DNA of 35,483 nucleotides from a virus, in the IMG/VR virus record IMGVR_UViG_3300025674_000155, positions 1 through 35,483 of that record. One strand, given 5' to 3'. Of this stretch, positions 1,090 to 27,294 are shown in pieces. The notes under the pieces were generated by a model that searched no databases, had not been told where the DNA came from, and saw only the letters and a program-made list of their open reading frames with translations. The stretch's first letter is position 1, and each line of letters begins with the position of its first letter. Made by a program: the position numbers and the translations under genes.

Positions 1090-3612
1090 ATGTCATTTTA
1101 TACATCAGTAGTTCGTTATTCTAACTATATGCTTTACCGTGGCTATGATAATAACGGTAAAAAAATATTCAGAAAAGATTTTTTCAAACCAACATTCTAC
1201 ATACCAGCCCAAAAAGATACGGGTTGGCGTGGACTGGATGGTACAGCAGTTGGACCTGTTGAATTTGAATCCATGCGCGAGGCCAAAGGATGGCTTGAGC
1301 AATATGAAGATGTAAAAGGATTTCAAGTTTATGGTTCAACTAACTATATTCACCAATACATTACGGAAAAATTTCCACGTGATATTGAATTTGATCGTGA
1401 CCTAATTAATGTAACCACAATTGATATTGAAACTGCATATGAAAATGGATTTCCTAATCCAGAAGATGCAGACCAAGAAATATTGGCCATCACAATGAAA
1501 AATAATATTGATGGCATTTATCACGTTTGGGGTTATGGTGACTTTGATACAGAGGCATCTCTTATCAAACCGGTTCAATATCGTAAGTGTAAGGACGAAG
1601 TAGAACTTCTAGTAAGTTTTCTTGATTTTTATTCCAGACAAGATGTAATACCAGACGTATTAACTGGTTGGAATGTTAGGTTCTTTGATGTGCCATATCT
1701 TGTAAACCGAGTGTCTCGCATACTTGGTCTTGATATGGTAAAAAAGTTCTCTCCTTGGGGTATGATTGAACATCGTAATATAACTCGTATGAATCGTAAG
1801 GAAATCACATACGATATCAGAGGTGTTCAGATCCTAGACTATCTGGAACTATTCCAAAAATTTGGTTACACATACGGAAAACAAGAATCATATAAACTTG
1901 ATCATATTGCCTATGTTGTCCTAGGGACAAAGAAACTATCCTTTGAGGAATCCGGCTCACTTCGTAATCTATATAAAGACGACCACCAAAAATATATTGA
2001 TTATAATATGAAAGATGTTGAATTGGTGGATCGTCTTGAAGATAAAATGGGTCTTATCACACTTGCCATGACCGTGGCATATAAAGGTGGTGTAAACTAT
2101 GGTGATGTGATGGGGACCGTTGCAATTTGGGAATCAATTATTTATCGAAAGTTGATTACCCAAAAATCAGTACCACTGGCATTTTCCGACAACGCAACAA
2201 AGACTAACTTTGCCGGTGGTTTTGTCAAGGATGTTCAGGTTGGAATGCATGACTGGGTTGTGTCATTTGACCTGAACTCCTTGTATCCTAATATTATTGT
2301 GCAATGGAATATGTCACCAGAGACATTGGTACGTGGTGTGCCTGGTGTAAAATCTGGCGTGGACCATTATCTTGGTTATTATGGTTCTGAATTGGATCCA
2401 CTTCATGAGGCTGTCCGTGACAAAAACTATACAGTTGCCACTAATGGATCCACATACCGTAAGGATATAGATGGGGTTGTTCCATCCATTATTGTTGACT
2501 ATTATGATGACCGACGGTCTGTTAAAAACCAAATGTTGGCAGCAGAAAAACAATATCAAAAAACAAAAACGTATGAACTTGAAAAAGAAATTAATCGGTT
2601 GCATAACCAACAGATGGCTATTAAAATTTTGATGAACTCACTTTATGGTGCTCTTGGTAATCAATATTTTAAATACTTTGACTTGCAGGTTGCCGAGGCC
2701 GTAACCTTAACAGGGCAGATGGTTATCCAATGGGCAGAAAAAGCCGTTAATGAAACTATGAATAAGGTAATGAAAACAAATGGAAAAGATTACGTTATTG
2801 CTATTGATACCGATTCTCTTTATATTAATTTCGGTCCTCTTATAGAGCAATTAAATCCAAAAAATCCAGTACAGTTTCTTGATAAGGTTTGCCAAGAACA
2901 TTTTGAACCTATTCTGAAAAAATCCTATGATGATCTATTCCATAAGATGAATGGTCACAAACCAAGAATGGAAATGTCAAGAGAGGTTATTGCAGACCGC
3001 GGAATCTGGACTGCCAAGAAACGCTATATACTTAATGTGCATAACTCAGAAGGTGTACAGTATGATGAACCTAAACTCAAAATTATGGGCATTGAGGCCA
3101 TCAAGTCGTCAACTCCCGAGGTTGTCCGAGGTAAATTCAAAGAGGCATTTCGGATTATCATTTCGCAAGGTGAAAAAGATACTCAGAACTTCATACAGAA
3201 ATTCAAATCGGATTTTAAATCGCTCCCACCCGAGGCAGTGGCATTTCCACGGGGTGTCTCGAATATTACAGACTGGCGCGATAGGAAAACTATATACAAG
3301 AAAGGTAGCCCTATTCACGTCCGAGGATCCTTGCTATATAATAAACACCTCAAAGATGGAAAACTCACACAAAAATATGAATTAATTGAAAATGGCAGTC
3401 GGATTAAATTCTGTTATCTAAAACTACCAAACAGAATTAAGGAAAACGTAATTGCATTCCCAGACCAATTACCAAAAGAATTACAACTTGACCGCTATAT
3501 AGATTATGAATTACAATTTGAAAAAACATTTATTGAACCACTCAGACTAATATTGGATGCAGTTGGTTGGACAGTAGAAGAACAACAGACACTGGAGGAT
3601 TTCTTTGTATGA
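1090..3612 (+). CDS. 43: DNA polymerase, family B (T4 gp43-like)
   Basis: This is the replicative DNA polymerase of a T4-like phage, with 3'-5' exonuclease and polymerase domains in 840 aa (T4 gp43 is 898 aa). Exonuclease motifs: Exo I DIET (D112, E114), Exo II GWNVRFFDVPYL, Exo III YNMKDVELV. Polymerase motifs: A SFDLNSLYPNII (D394), B KILMNSLYGALGN, C IAIDTDSLYI (D573, D575), then KKRYI. The N-terminal FYTSVVRYSNYMLYRGYD resembles gp43. It begins at ATG 1090 after GGAGG and has its own early-type promoter. Its stop overlaps the next gene as ATGA. No intein or intron is seen. Confidence 0.97.
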   Translation: MSFYTSVVRYSNYMLYRGYDNNGKKIFRKDFFKPTFYIPAQKDTGWRGLDGTAVGPVEFESMREAKGWLEQYEDVKGFQVYGSTNYIHQYITEKFPRDIEFDRDLINVTTIDIETAYENGFPNPEDADQEILAITMKNNIDGIYHVWGYGDFDTEASLIKPVQYRKCKDEVELLVSFLDFYSRQDVIPDVLTGWNVRFFDVPYLVNRVSRILGLDMVKKFSPWGMIEHRNITRMNRKEITYDIRGVQILDYLELFQKFGYTYGKQESYKLDHIAYVVLGTKKLSFEESGSLRNLYKDDHQKYIDYNMKDVELVDRLEDKMGLITLAMTVAYKGGVNYGDVMGTVAIWESIIYRKLITQKSVPLAFSDNATKTNFAGGFVKDVQVGMHDWVVSFDLNSLYPNIIVQWNMSPETLVRGVPGVKSGVDHYLGYYGSELDPLHEAVRDKNYTVATNGSTYRKDIDGVVPSIIVDYYDDRRSVKNQMLAAEKQYQKTKTYELEKEINRLHNQQMAIKILMNSLYGALGNQYFKYFDLQVAEAVTLTGQMVIQWAEKAVNETMNKVMKTNGKDYVIAIDTDSLYINFGPLIEQLNPKNPVQFLDKVCQEHFEPILKKSYDDLFHKMNGHKPRMEMSREVIADRGIWTAKKRYILNVHNSEGVQYDEPKLKIMGIEAIKSSTPEVVRGKFKEAFRIIISQGEKDTQNFIQKFKSDFKSLPPEAVAFPRGVSNITDWRDRKTIYKKGSPIHVRGSLLYNKHLKDGKLTQKYELIENGSRIKFCYLKLPNRIKENVIAFPDQLPKELQLDRYIDYELQFEKTFIEPLRLILDAVGWTVEEQQTLEDFFV

Positions 3613-3998
3613 CAAACTTTAAGGCCGTAGGCGAATTTATGAACACATTTGGTCAAGAGGTAAAGACAGAACCGGATTGGCCAGATGAGGACACCCAGAA
3701 ATTAAGACTTGAATTGATTGCTGAAGAACTAGAGGAGATGTGGGATGCGATTGAAAATAAAGACCTCGTCAGTGTTGCTGATGCTCTTACTGACATTCTG
3801 TACGTTACTTATGGTGCAGGTCATGCTTTCGGTATAGACCTTGATAAGTGCTTTGAGGAAGTACAAAGATCTAATATGAGTAAACTTGGTGAAGATGGTA
3901 AACCTATTTACCGTGAGGATGGTAAAGTATTAAAAGGTCCAAATTATTCGGAACCAGATCTAAAAAACACTTTACATTTTCCGAAAGATGTGATATAA
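3609..3998 (+). CDS. MazG-like NTP pyrophosphohydrolase
   Basis: The 129-aa product matches the all-alpha NTP-PPase fold (MazG/PRA-PH). An acidic metal-binding helix ELIAEELEEMWDAIE is followed by a second helix with DALTDILYVTYG, giving the ExxE...ExxD-type arrangement. A tail FEEVQRSNMSKLGEDGKP is typical of phage and bacterial homologues. Such enzymes hydrolyse nucleoside triphosphates to monophosphates, and phage versions are thought to adjust host nucleotide pools or ppGpp. The start at ATG 3609 overlaps the polymerase stop (ATGA), indicating coupling. Promoter P2 for the next gene is embedded in its last codons. Confidence 0.85.
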   Translation: MTNFKAVGEFMNTFGQEVKTEPDWPDEDTQKLRLELIAEELEEMWDAIENKDLVSVADALTDILYVTYGAGHAFGIDLDKCFEEVQRSNMSKLGEDGKPIYREDGKVLKGPNYSEPDLKNTLHFPKDVI

Positions 3999-16637: not shown

Positions 16638-16666
16638 TTTACAATTGATGCAAAATGTATTATAAT
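16638..16666 (+). promoter_or_regulatory. Early-type promoter P8 (before BMP-family gene)
   Basis: TTTACA (16638-16643), 17 bp, TATAAT (16661-16666), with ATG-TAT before the -10. The last T of the -10 is also the first base of a TATAAATA (16666-16673), so a late-type element may overlap it. The leader contains AAAGGAGAA before ATG 16702. Confidence 0.82.
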
Positions 16667-16701
16667 ATAAATAAATTTTTAAAATCAAAGGAGAATGATT
16701 T

Positions 16702-17715
16702 ATGAATAAATTTTTAATTGCTGCAGCAGCAGTAATGACAGTAGCGTGGGCAACGGTTGCTCAGGCAGATCCGTTTAAGGTTGGTTTCGTATATGTGGGA
16801 CCAGTCGGCGATCACGGTTGGACATATATGCATGATAAAGGCCGTCAGCAAGTTGAAGAACACTTTGGTGATGCCGTTGAAACTATCTTTGTTGAATCAG
16901 TACCAGAAGGACCAGATGCAGAACGTGTAATGCGTAATATGATTGCAGAAGGTGTAGATATGATCTTTACCACATCATTTGGTTATATGGAACAAACTGT
17001 AAAAGTTGCCAAAGAGAATCCTGATGTACTCTTTGAACATGCAACTGGTTATAAAACTGCACCAAACCTTTCTGTATATTCCTCACGTTTTTATGAGGGT
17101 CGTTATGTACAGGGTGTGATTGCTGGTCATATGTCCAAAGCAGGTAAGGCTGGTTATATTGCATCATTTCCAATTCCAGAAGTGATTCGTGGAATTAATG
17201 CATTTTATCTTGGCGCAATCTCTGTAAATCCAGATTTTGATATTGATGTTGTATGGGTAAACACATGGTATGATCCACCAAAAGAAGCAGATGCAGCAAA
17301 AGTTTTGATGGCAGCAGGTGCTGATATTATTACTCAGCATACAGATTCTCCTTCACCATTGGCCGCGGCCTCTGCTAATGGCATTAAAGGTTTTGGTCAG
17401 GCATCAGATATGATTCAGTTTGCACCTGATACTCAGTTGACTGCTATTCTAGATGAATGGGGACCTTATTATATTGCTCGTGTACAAGCAGGAATTGATG
17501 GCACATGGAGTGAAACCAATACTTGGGGTGGTATGGATACAGGAATGGTTGATATGGCGCCAATGACAAATATGGATCCAGAACTTGCTGCACATGCCGA
17601 GCATATTGCACATCACATTAAGACAGGTCACTTCAAACCTTTTGGTGATCTTGACGATGGGGCACTTGCAACCATGATGGAATATGTTGACGGATTGGAT
17701 GCAGCAAAACCCTAA
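16702..17715 (+). CDS. BMP-family ABC-transporter substrate-binding protein
   Basis: The 337-aa secreted protein belongs to the Bmp/Med/PnrA group of periplasmic binding proteins, whose studied members bind nucleosides or purines. The signal peptide covers about residues 1-22 with cleavage after AQA; there is no lipobox Cys, so it should be a free periplasmic protein. Family features are KVGFVYVGPVGDHGWTYMHDKG, MIFTTSFGYMEQ, YKTAPNLSVYSSRFYEGRYVQG, ADIITQHTDSPSPL and ILDEWGPYY. The gene is full length and A+T-rich like its neighbours, so it is long resident. No permease or ATPase is nearby, so it would have to use a host transporter. It has its own promoter. Confidence 0.9.
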   Translation: MNKFLIAAAAVMTVAWATVAQADPFKVGFVYVGPVGDHGWTYMHDKGRQQVEEHFGDAVETIFVESVPEGPDAERVMRNMIAEGVDMIFTTSFGYMEQTVKVAKENPDVLFEHATGYKTAPNLSVYSSRFYEGRYVQGVIAGHMSKAGKAGYIASFPIPEVIRGINAFYLGAISVNPDFDIDVVWVNTWYDPPKEADAAKVLMAAGADIITQHTDSPSPLAAASANGIKGFGQASDMIQFAPDTQLTAILDEWGPYYIARVQAGIDGTWSETNTWGGMDTGMVDMAPMTNMDPELAAHAEHIAHHIKTGHFKPFGDLDDGALATMMEYVDGLDAAKP

Positions 17716-17716
17716 G

Positions 17717-17724
17717 TATAAATA
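17717..17724 (+). promoter_or_regulatory. Candidate late promoter (TATAAATA) before tmRNA
   Basis: Exact TATAAATA two nt after the BMP gene stop and just before the tmRNA acceptor piece. A start about 7 nt downstream (near 17731) would coincide with the apparent 5' end of the tmRNA precursor. That position makes it a credible promoter for the tmRNA and possibly for the following cassette. Confidence 0.5.
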
Positions 17725-17729
17725 GAATT

Positions 17730-17962
17730 GTTCGATGAAGCAAATCGAAAGGTAAACTGGACGGGGGTGCGATACCCCCCGCCTCCACCATAACATTATG
17801 GGGGCGAAATAGGATCGACAGGTATTGAATAGAGATGTGGAGAACAACGGCTGATCGCGTAATAGATCAATTAAGTAAATGCAAACGATAACTTTGCACC
17901 TGAGATGCGCCTAGCGGCATAATCTCTGGGCCCGCCGGAGCCTCGAAACAGAATCCGGCAAC
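17730..17962 (+). ncRNA. ssrA: Circularly permuted (two-piece) tmRNA
   Basis: The 3' acceptor piece comes first: a GGGGG TGCGATA CCCCC T-arm (17763-17779) and CGCCTCCACCA (17780-17790) including an encoded CCA. After a 9-nt spacer the coding piece begins with GGGGGCGAAATAGGATCGACA (17800-). GGGGGCG pairs with CGCCTCC to form a 7-bp acceptor stem with G3.U70, the alanine identity pair. The tag frame follows at 17881-17922, with a GAGAT/ATCTC stem around its stop and a terminal GCCGGA/TCCGGC hairpin (17934-17959). tmRNA rescues stalled ribosomes and tags proteins for proteolysis. This permuted order is typical of alphaproteobacteria. Outer ends are approximate. Confidence 0.93.
17881..17922 (+). 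other. tmRNA tag reading frame, ANDNFAPEMRLAA
   Basis: The resume codon GCA at 17881 opens a frame encoding ANDNFAPEMRLAA and ending in TAA. The ANDN start and the LAA end match tmRNA degradation tags; the C-terminal LAA is what ClpXP recognises. The FAPEMR middle is unusual to my eye and may be phage-specific. Confidence 0.9.
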
Positions 17963-17976
17963 TTTATGGATTTGAC

Positions 17977-18489
17977 ATGTTATTTTATTGGTACATTTTT
18001 TATTTTATCTTTGCGACAATCGGCGCAACATTAGGATTGCATAGATATTGGGCTCATAGAAAAGGCTCTAGAAATATCTGGTTTGAATGGATATCGTTAA
18101 TCTGTGCATTAATAATTGGCGTTTATAAACCCATAAGCTGGATAGGAATTCATAGACTACATCACAAATACAGTGATACCGCAAAAGATCCACACTCACC
18201 AAAATATCAAGGCTTTTGGAAAGTATTTTTATCTAGATGGGAAGGTCACATACCTTATCATTTGGTAAAGGACTGTGTAAGAAATCCTAGAATGAGATTC
18301 TTTCAGAGGTATGGCAAATACCTTATTTGGCCTGTAATTATTTTTTCTCCGTATACAATCATTCTAGGATATATTGGAATAGGAATATTAAATACTGCGG
18401 GACATTCGAATGGGCCAGCTAATCACTGGTGGATAAACATATTGGCACCATTTGAAGGGAATCATAAGGATCACCATGCAGGTTTATGA
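17977..18489 (+). CDS. Compact fatty-acid (acyl-CoA) desaturase
   Basis: The 170-aa membrane di-iron desaturase contains all three histidine boxes in order: LGLHRYWAHR, IHRLHHKYSD and GNHKDHH. Hydrophobic segments flank them (IFYFIFATIGATLG, WISLICALIIGVY, LIWPVIIFSPYTIILGYI). Bacterial acyl-CoA desaturases are usually 250-320 aa, so this is unusually short and ends soon after box three. It would introduce a double bond into membrane fatty acids. It begins 15 nt after the tmRNA with only a weak ribosome site, and the next gene starts inside its last codons. It heads the oxygenase cassette. Confidence 0.82.
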   Translation: MLFYWYIFYFIFATIGATLGLHRYWAHRKGSRNIWFEWISLICALIIGVYKPISWIGIHRLHHKYSDTAKDPHSPKYQGFWKVFLSRWEGHIPYHLVKDCVRNPRMRFFQRYGKYLIWPVIIFSPYTIILGYIGIGILNTAGHSNGPANHWWINILAPFEGNHKDHHAGL

Positions 18490-26664: not shown

Positions 26665-26834
26665 TGAAAGCACATAAACCGGAAATGATTGCCGCTTGGG
26701 CACGTCAGAATAACATTGATGGATTCGAACAATACGATCCGAAATGGCAAGAGAAGAATCGTATGCGTGCATTAAAGTGGAGACAAAAGCAAGATGAGAG
26801 AAAGAACTCTGAAGCTCAAAGAACACAGTATTAA
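26664..26834 (+). CDS. Unknown small basic protein (56 aa)
   Basis: ATG 26664 shares its A with the upstream stop. The 56-aa product is hydrophilic and basic (MKAHKPEMIAAWARQNNIDG, then RMRALKWRQKQDERKN). It may bind nucleic acid. The assignment rests on coupling and codon pattern. The Na+/Pi transporter-like gene follows after 22 nt. Confidence 0.6.
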   Translation: MKAHKPEMIAAWARQNNIDGFEQYDPKWQEKNRMRALKWRQKQDERKNSEAQRTQY

Positions 26835-26856
26835 ACTCTTTAAGAAGGTAAGAAAA

Positions 26857-27294
26857 ATGGATCTAGGGAATCCCGTAATGACGGCACTTGTAGGACTTGT
26901 TATTTTCTACATTGGTCTCAAAACATTTTCAGGTGGCATGAAGTCTATGGGCAACATGGAACATCTTGCTTGGTTCACTGGTAACGTATTCTATATGTTT
27001 ATTGGTGGTATCATTATGACTTTACTTTGGCAGTCATCATCCCTCTCAACTACTGCCATTATTGCTCTTGTTGCATCAGGAGCGATACCATTACCTGCTG
27101 CAATTGCTGCAGTACTAGGTGCTAACATAGGAACGACCGGAACTATCTGGTTGGCAGGTTTGCTTGTCTCGGATGGTATGCCAAAGGGCGATACTTTACG
27201 AATAGCAATGGCACATACTGGTGTCAATCTATTGATGGCAATGGCACTCCTACCGTTCGTCGGGCGAATAGCTCAATTCTTAGGAAGATTTTAA
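26857..27294 (+). CDS. Half-length Na+/phosphate cotransporter-like membrane protein
   Basis: The 145-aa protein carries the SLC34/NptA (Na_Pi_cotrans) signature: WQSSSLSTTAIIALVASGAI (QSSS at 59-62), VLGANIGTT (GANIGTT at 88-94), and RIAMAHTGVNLLMA corresponding to the family's (A/a)H..FN segment. Family members contain two inverted repeats, each with QSSS, in 300 or more residues; this has one, most like the C-terminal repeat. Start chosen at ATG 26857 (AAGAAGG upstream); an in-frame ATG at 26794 would add 21 basic residues and overlap the previous gene. It could raise phosphate uptake for DNA synthesis. An intrinsic terminator follows. Confidence 0.82.
   Translation: MDLGNPVMTALVGLVIFYIGLKTFSGGMKSMGNMEHLAWFTGNVFYMFIGGIIMTLLWQSSSLSTTAIIALVASGAIPLPAAIAAVLGANIGTTGTIWLAGLLVSDGMPKGDTLRIAMAHTGVNLLMAMALLPFVGRIAQFLGRF

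Follow-up and report, generated by a model that had tools for sequence, protein, structure and literature searches.

A phage-borne two-piece tmRNA gene directly behind a putative T4-type late promoter

Introduction

At what stage of infection would a phage transcribe its own copy of tmRNA, and to what use would it be put? The question is raised by a gene at positions 17729 to 17963 of a stretch of 35,483 bases (hereafter the window), which is the whole of a linear IMG/VR record and a fragment of a phage genome. Two-piece tmRNAs are described, in the portions of the paper available to us, for Methylophilales phage Melnitz and Pelagibacter phage Mosig; the same portions count 53 two-piece forms among 133 unique phage tmRNAs, with 50 of the 53 marine or aquatic (PMC9004378). 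A tmRNA database of 2025, the source of Rfam model RF04321, holds 79 phage sequences according to the available part of its description (PMC11915505). Phage two-piece tmRNA is already published as a kind, and the window gene is a further member.

The published proposal, as the accessible text of PMC9004378 gives it, places the action of the phage tmRNA early in infection, with early expression proposed for the Melnitz gene, which lies downstream of an early promoter. We find a box of the T4 late-promoter type at the tmRNA genes of about half of the sampled phage lineages and of the cultured phage Melnitz, and late-phase timing is thus directly testable. We put the probability that the window encodes a functional phage two-piece tmRNA that is expressed late at roughly 70%.

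Results and Discussion

A complete permuted tmRNA gene

A cmscan search of the whole window returned the Rfam model RF04321 (tmRNA_permuted) at 121 bits against a gathering threshold of 47 (E = 2.4e-23, 17729 to 17922) and, overlapping it, RF01849 (alpha_tmRNA) at 94.9 bits against 50 (E = 8e-25, 17691 to 17963). This is the single RNA gene above Rfam threshold in the window. The candidate STnc40 was rejected at 30.1 bits, under its threshold of 45, and no riboswitch in the window matched Rfam. ARAGORN reported nothing anywhere in the window, so genes of this kind can escape a survey that uses no other tool.

The gene, like the other features of this locus described below, lies on the plus strand. 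Its acceptor piece (17729 to 17790, delimited by sequence reading, Rfam and phage alignment) precedes the coding piece and opens with the outer P2 5' strand UGUUC (17729 to 17733), which pairs with GAACA (17842 to 17846) in the P2 3' strand. There follow the T arm (17763 to 17779, with its stem at 17763 to 17767 and 17775 to 17779), the acceptor 3' strand CGCCUCC (17780 to 17786), A73 (17787) and CCA (17788 to 17790). A spacer of 9 nt (17791 to 17799) separates it from the coding piece (17800 to 17963, the 3' end being approximate), which holds the 5' strand GGGGGCG (17800 to 17806), the D-arm region, the P2 3' strand, the tag region and, 3' of the tag, a hairpin GCCGGA...AACAGAA...UCCGGC (17934 to 17959) recognized by sequence reading and by the RF01849 match. 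The acceptor stem is 7 bp long, joining 17780 to 17786 with 17800 to 17806, and G17802.U17784 is its G3.U70 pair. The tag frame, ANDNFAPEMRLAA, occupies codons 17881 to 17919 and a TAA stop at 17920 to 17922, with an alanine resume codon and a hydrophobic C-terminus.

These results confirm a complete permuted, two-piece tmRNA of the alphaproteobacterial type at 17729 to 17963. The initial annotation had described a phage-borne, circularly permuted tmRNA with its CCA-bearing acceptor piece first, a 7-bp acceptor stem with G3.U70, the tag ANDNFAPEMRLAA and an adjacent TATAAATA element, and had named a low covariance-model score as one outcome that would overturn it. Both Rfam models scored far above threshold, every one of these readings is borne out, the phage origin by the T4-like genes of the record, and the limits of 17730 and 17962 given there are correct to within one base.

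In an alignment of 25 phage tmRNAs, 10 of the 18 consensus pairs have changed on both sides with pairing kept; the covarying helices are the inner P2, the T stem and one acceptor-stem pair, and all 25 have G-U as the third acceptor-stem pair. Because the pattern used to collect relatives fixed some acceptor-stem bases, that stem is no independent test of covariation; the inner P2 and the T stem are backed by covariation, the outer P2 by the position test described below and by that only.

The phage and its relatives

The record's DNA polymerase (1090 to 3612) is T4-like, with an identity of at most 52.6% to any of 2600 matching phage records, and its UvsX is 76.2% identical to that of C48C1 (Kyanoviridae), the nearest named relative of the window phage. 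These two matches give the T4-like context of the source, a marine phage. A permuted tmRNA, sought with RF04321, is absent from C48C1 and present in Mosig, Melnitz and HTVC008M, and the absence from C48C1 means that phages of the group can do without the gene. SmpB genes were sought in 16 phage records, that of the window among them, and none was found; the protein would thus have to come from the host.

When the 1301 bases around the tmRNA were compared by blastn with 50,697 phage records, nothing matched, and relatives therefore had to be collected by pattern (loci and records carry our L numbers). A pattern of acceptor end plus coding start with a 1-to-31-nt spacer gave at least 119 IMG/VR stretches, and patterns with spacers of 70 to 100 nt and 101 to 131 nt gave at least 120 each. 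As a cellular control, the short-spacer pattern gave at least 120 stretches of bacterial genomes, a sample confined to that pattern and skewed to cultured terrestrial alphaproteobacteria. Loci whose upstream sequence was too short were left out (2/120, 3/120 and 1/120 viral; 5/120 cellular). The three viral samples were taken without regard to promoters and the window is one of the 118 loci of the first; near-identical contigs occur inside the samples, and counts by lineage and by distinct sequence are hence also given.

A predicted late start at the first base of the tmRNA

Among the matches listed, TATAAATA stands 60 to 88 nt before the CCA end at 55/118, 76/117 and 84/119 viral loci, where the remainder of those contigs predicts 0.43, 0.29 and 0.43, and at 0 of 115 cellular loci. 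Counted by lineage (75% identity over the 110 nt before the CCA end, a lineage being boxed when at least half of its members have the box), this becomes 53 of 106 viral vs 0 of 32 cellular lineages among the matches listed. The box is found at 19 of the 27 listed loci with 45 to 55% G+C and at 0 of the 15 above 55%, and the former count indicates that AT content alone does not explain it. A leader motif that precedes P2 in the cellular genes (108/115) is nearly absent from the phages (4/118, 2/117 and 7/119), all among the matches listed; the motif expression was derived by eye from these cellular genes.

In T4, roughly one helical turn separates a late box from the transcription start downstream of it (PMC2988020, in part). 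In the window the box occupies 17717 to 17724, and the start that it predicts at +12/+13, 17729/17730, falls on the base that opens the first (P2) helix, the spacing of a late promoter. The same register recurs in the relatives: counted from the first T of the box, the outer helix begins 11 to 13 nt downstream at 131 of 215 boxed loci, vs 33 and 43 of 215 in controls with the coding segment shifted by 40 or 80 nt (among the matches listed). The analysis thus shows the gene structure, covarying helices and a promoter position conserved in many phages.

The nearest named relative uses the same word in a manner consistent with late transcription. C48C1 has 23 TATAAATA sites in 150 kb, 18 of them within 100 nt before the start of a same-strand CDS or tRNA; the boxed genes include those for tail sheath, tail tube, head-tail adaptor, baseplate and head-closure proteins, and the phage encodes homologues of gp55, gp33 and gp45. 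A gp55 match is found in C48C1, Mosig, Melnitz and HTVC008M, and the gp55 family (phrog_234) is represented in 11 of 15 boxed records of at least 90 kb, the four lacking a match to the family being L349, L351, L391 and L407. L537 and L508 have gp55 and lack the exact box. As a separator of boxed from unboxed records, gp55 presence failed, with exceptions both ways, a failure that we attribute to most records being fragments. A late-transcription coactivator gene of the gp33 type adjoins the tmRNA or lies a few genes from it in Melnitz (L478), Mosig (L479) and HTVC008M (L480).

Early or late transcription

The strongest competing explanation follows the timing published for Melnitz: the tmRNA would be an early gene, and TATAAATA a mere sigma70 -10 box with no late transcription. 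We consider this unlikely. In its favour, five or six of the six bases of TTGACA, 16 to 18 nt upstream, are present at 35/55, 54/76 and 55/84 boxed loci (among the matches listed), vs 3.4% at random positions with 15 to 19 nt allowed, and Melnitz itself has TTGACA-N17-TATAAATA right before the acceptor piece, its authors placing the tmRNA downstream of an early promoter (PMC9004378, in part). The choice of -10 sequence, however, speaks against a plain sigma70 promoter. At tmRNAs, TTGAC(A/T)-N16-18 is followed by TATAAATA in 59 distinct sequences and by TATAAT in 1, whereas elsewhere in the same contigs it is followed by TATAAATA in 5 and by TATAAT in 107 (among the matches listed; Fisher p = 6e-39, with related contigs not fully independent). 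Some loci, moreover, hold both a -10 box and a displaced late box (TATAATATAAATA), and the box of the window tmRNA stands without a -35 box, the best match to one being 3/6.

The window does contain a putative overlapping early-late promoter, placed not at the tmRNA but one gene upstream. Directly before the tmRNA lies a gene for a Bmp/PnrA-like ABC-transporter substrate-binding protein of 337 aa (16702 to 17715; PF02608, E = 4e-49), and before that gene, at 16638 to 16673, a promoter-like element combines TTTACA-N17-TATAAT with an overlapping TATAAATA (16666 to 16673), the sequence reading TTTACA-N17-TATAATATAAATA. TTTACA-N17-TATAAT is repeated before other window genes. With such an element at Bmp and a late box at the tmRNA, the tmRNA could be reached by early read-through and could also be initiated late. 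The tmRNA adjoins Bmp downstream in 5 of the 20 best Bmp loci (L262, L270, L271, L272 and L276). The late box is intact in L262, from the same population, and in L276; it is lost at the same locus in two of the nearest lineages (L270; L271/L272), which retain only TAAATA. Relatives of the Bmp/PnrA-like protein were found in 214 IMG/VR stretches.

Late expression of a functional tmRNA thus has evidence to contend with: the window promoter is of the late type only, the lineages L270 and L271/L272 no longer have the box, C48C1 has no tmRNA, and 4 of the 15 long boxed records have no gp55 family match.

Likeness to known systems

With Melnitz and Mosig, and by RF04321 also with HTVC008M, the window shares a permuted tmRNA of the alphaproteobacterial type in a T4-like marine phage; it differs in the Bmp gene upstream. 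Melnitz shares the TATAAATA box right before the acceptor piece, but there the box is fused to a -35 box and the promoter is called early by the authors, whereas the window has the late box only. For Melnitz they also describe a riboswitch in the 3' domain (PMC9004378, in part); the window gave no Rfam riboswitch match. The Mosig and HTVC008M sequence inspected showed no TATAAATA at the corresponding position, the Mosig stretch being printed on the other strand. Cellular ssrA (RF01849) resembles the window gene in piece order, acceptor stem, T arm, P2 and an ANDN...LAA tag, and differs in its leader motif and in lacking TATAAATA at all 115 loci among the matches listed.

Cyanophage late boxes read NATAAATA, and overlapping early and late promoters are reported for RB49, S-PM2 and Syn9 (PMC2984593, in part). 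The likeness lies in a sigma70-type promoter plus a NATAAATA late box at one gene. The available text treats phage genes in general, whereas here the box addresses the 5' base of a stable RNA; of the two parts, the window tmRNA has the late one only and the window Bmp gene both. A late box set for a start at the first base of a tmRNA appears to be a new promoter design, and no description of this arrangement at a phage tmRNA was found in the literature searched.

A proposed role in ribosome rescue

From these features we infer promoter activity, processing, charging, tagging and a benefit to the phage. For trans-translation the phage tmRNA would draw on SmpB, alanyl-tRNA synthetase and RNA-processing enzymes of the host, and stalled products would be tagged for host proteases that read LAA. 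An RNA initiated from the late box would have the opening base of the first P2 helix as its 5' end, so that the acceptor piece would need little or no 5' trimming; it would be made late in infection, on top of whatever early read-through the Bmp promoter supplies. Ribosome rescue could in this way be kept running after the phage stops host transcription. The initial suggestion that the phage tmRNA replaces host trans-translation is possible.

A quite different role is conceivable, that of a decoy which would block trans-translation in the host by titrating SmpB or ribosomes, a role reported for the tag-less tmRNA-like RNA of mycobacteriophage DS6A (PMC11915505, in part). DS6A is a precedent, its RNA being a phage-borne tmRNA relative, and the lack of SmpB in all 16 phage records would suit a decoy. 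The DS6A RNA has no tag frame, however, while that of the window is intact, open and closed by a stop; ANDN...LAA is kept across diverse phages, and acceptor pair 3 is invariably G-U in the 25 aligned tmRNAs. A decoy needs neither tag nor G-U, and we hold this explanation to be improbable.

The tag peptide

The initial annotation had called the tag distinct and proposed that host proteolysis might handle it differently. It is distinct in one respect: its first nine residues occur in 0/9, 0/385 and 0/197 alphaproteobacterial cellular genomes (overlapping sets), and the search for a host by tag failed. The Pelagibacter cell loci in our sample have other tag sequences, and the same tag, with some codons different, recurs in L054, L068 and L422. 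Otherwise the tag is of the ordinary alphaproteobacterial type. Its ANDN start is common to phage and cellular alphaproteobacterial tags, and its LAA end is the commonest ending in phages (48/53 and 54/61 distinct tags) and also in cells (21/47), among the matches listed; 6/120, 13/120 and 9/120 loci of the three sets were unparsed, and one odd 19-aa tag (set B) and the 28- and 31-aa tags of the cellular set may be parser errors.

That tagged proteins would meet a fate other than that given by the host tag is therefore a poor fit to these data, and we rate it as slightly less credible still than a decoy. The absence of the tag from the cellular genomes searched lends it something, as do the rare phages with 29- and 31-aa tags, but an ordinary ANDN...LAA composition points to ordinary proteolysis, and phage tags end in LAA, if anything, more often than cellular ones (among the matches listed). 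The longer tags are a 29-aa form, ANDNALSNVTFVDFSAPVTAVNEDFALAA (L022, L025, L038, L043, L085, L087, L102 and L103), and a strongly basic 31-aa form, ANDNVAQPKFMKKRNTFARKVGFTKGMALAA (L029, L097 and L115).

The notion of a passive remnant of host ssrA, taken up by prophage excision at what is a known integration site (PMC9004378, in part), is scarcely tenable for a gene that is complete in both pieces, has compensatory changes in its relatives and carries a phage-type promoter with no cellular leader.

Spacers and microprotein frames

The spacer of the window gene is merely 9 nt long and holds no microprotein frame, but the spacers of related phages can be far larger. L272, at the same locus as the window, has a ribosome-binding site and a 26-aa frame in its tmRNA spacer (2095 to 2175); other such frames occur in L271 (4095 to 4175), in the spacers of L481 to L600 and in Melnitz (L245, 1584 to 1712). 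Among the matches listed, 33 of 100 distinct spacers of 101 to 131 nt contain a frame of at least 25 aa with a start and a Shine-Dalgarno-like stretch, where 100 dinucleotide shuffles gave 2.4 on average and never more than 7. The 70-to-100-nt spacers have no such excess (2 vs 2.5 expected, among the matches listed).

The microproteins fall into recurring families, one ending in KYLG, one ending in MGAK with its stop inside the coding piece, and one QKL family. A relative of the QKL family stands free of any tmRNA in L325 (728 to 817), and a tmRNA-free relative of a spacer microprotein, a likeness judged by eye, lies near 3955 to 4025 of L297; such relatives suggest that small phage genes were captured as spacer frames. 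In four groups dN/dS in frame is 0.20, 0.53, 0.24 and 0.23, and higher in the other frames, the signal being weak in the group of 29-aa microproteins (0.53 vs 0.76 and 1.65). If real, the spacer microproteins would be protein genes nested inside a tmRNA gene, an arrangement of which no description was found in the literature searched.

We offer, at about even odds, a broader proposal: that phage two-piece tmRNAs form a distinct, organized class. Its members would have lost the cellular leader, would start at the first paired base and would use a promoter readable by both host sigma70 and the phage late sigma, sustaining rescue through the whole takeover. In about one-third of the genes with 101-to-131-nt spacers, the discarded spacer would be a messenger for a conserved microprotein, so that one transcript would yield a protein besides its tRNA-like and mRNA-like pieces. 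The window gene would be a stripped member, with a late box and a 9-nt spacer.

Many of the 70-to-100-nt spacers (L342 to L461) have complementary ends, for example GGATACAC...GTGTATC, with varied inserts between them, as if they folded into a long hairpin. Two further genes of the window deserve mention. Just beyond the tmRNA, 17977 to 18489 encodes a short protein with histidine-rich boxes, which has no Pfam match and a weak match to phrog_35201 (function unknown) and which we take to resemble a fatty-acid desaturase. At 26794 to 27294 lies a Na+/Pi-cotransporter-like domain (PF02690), possibly a host-derived nutrient gene.
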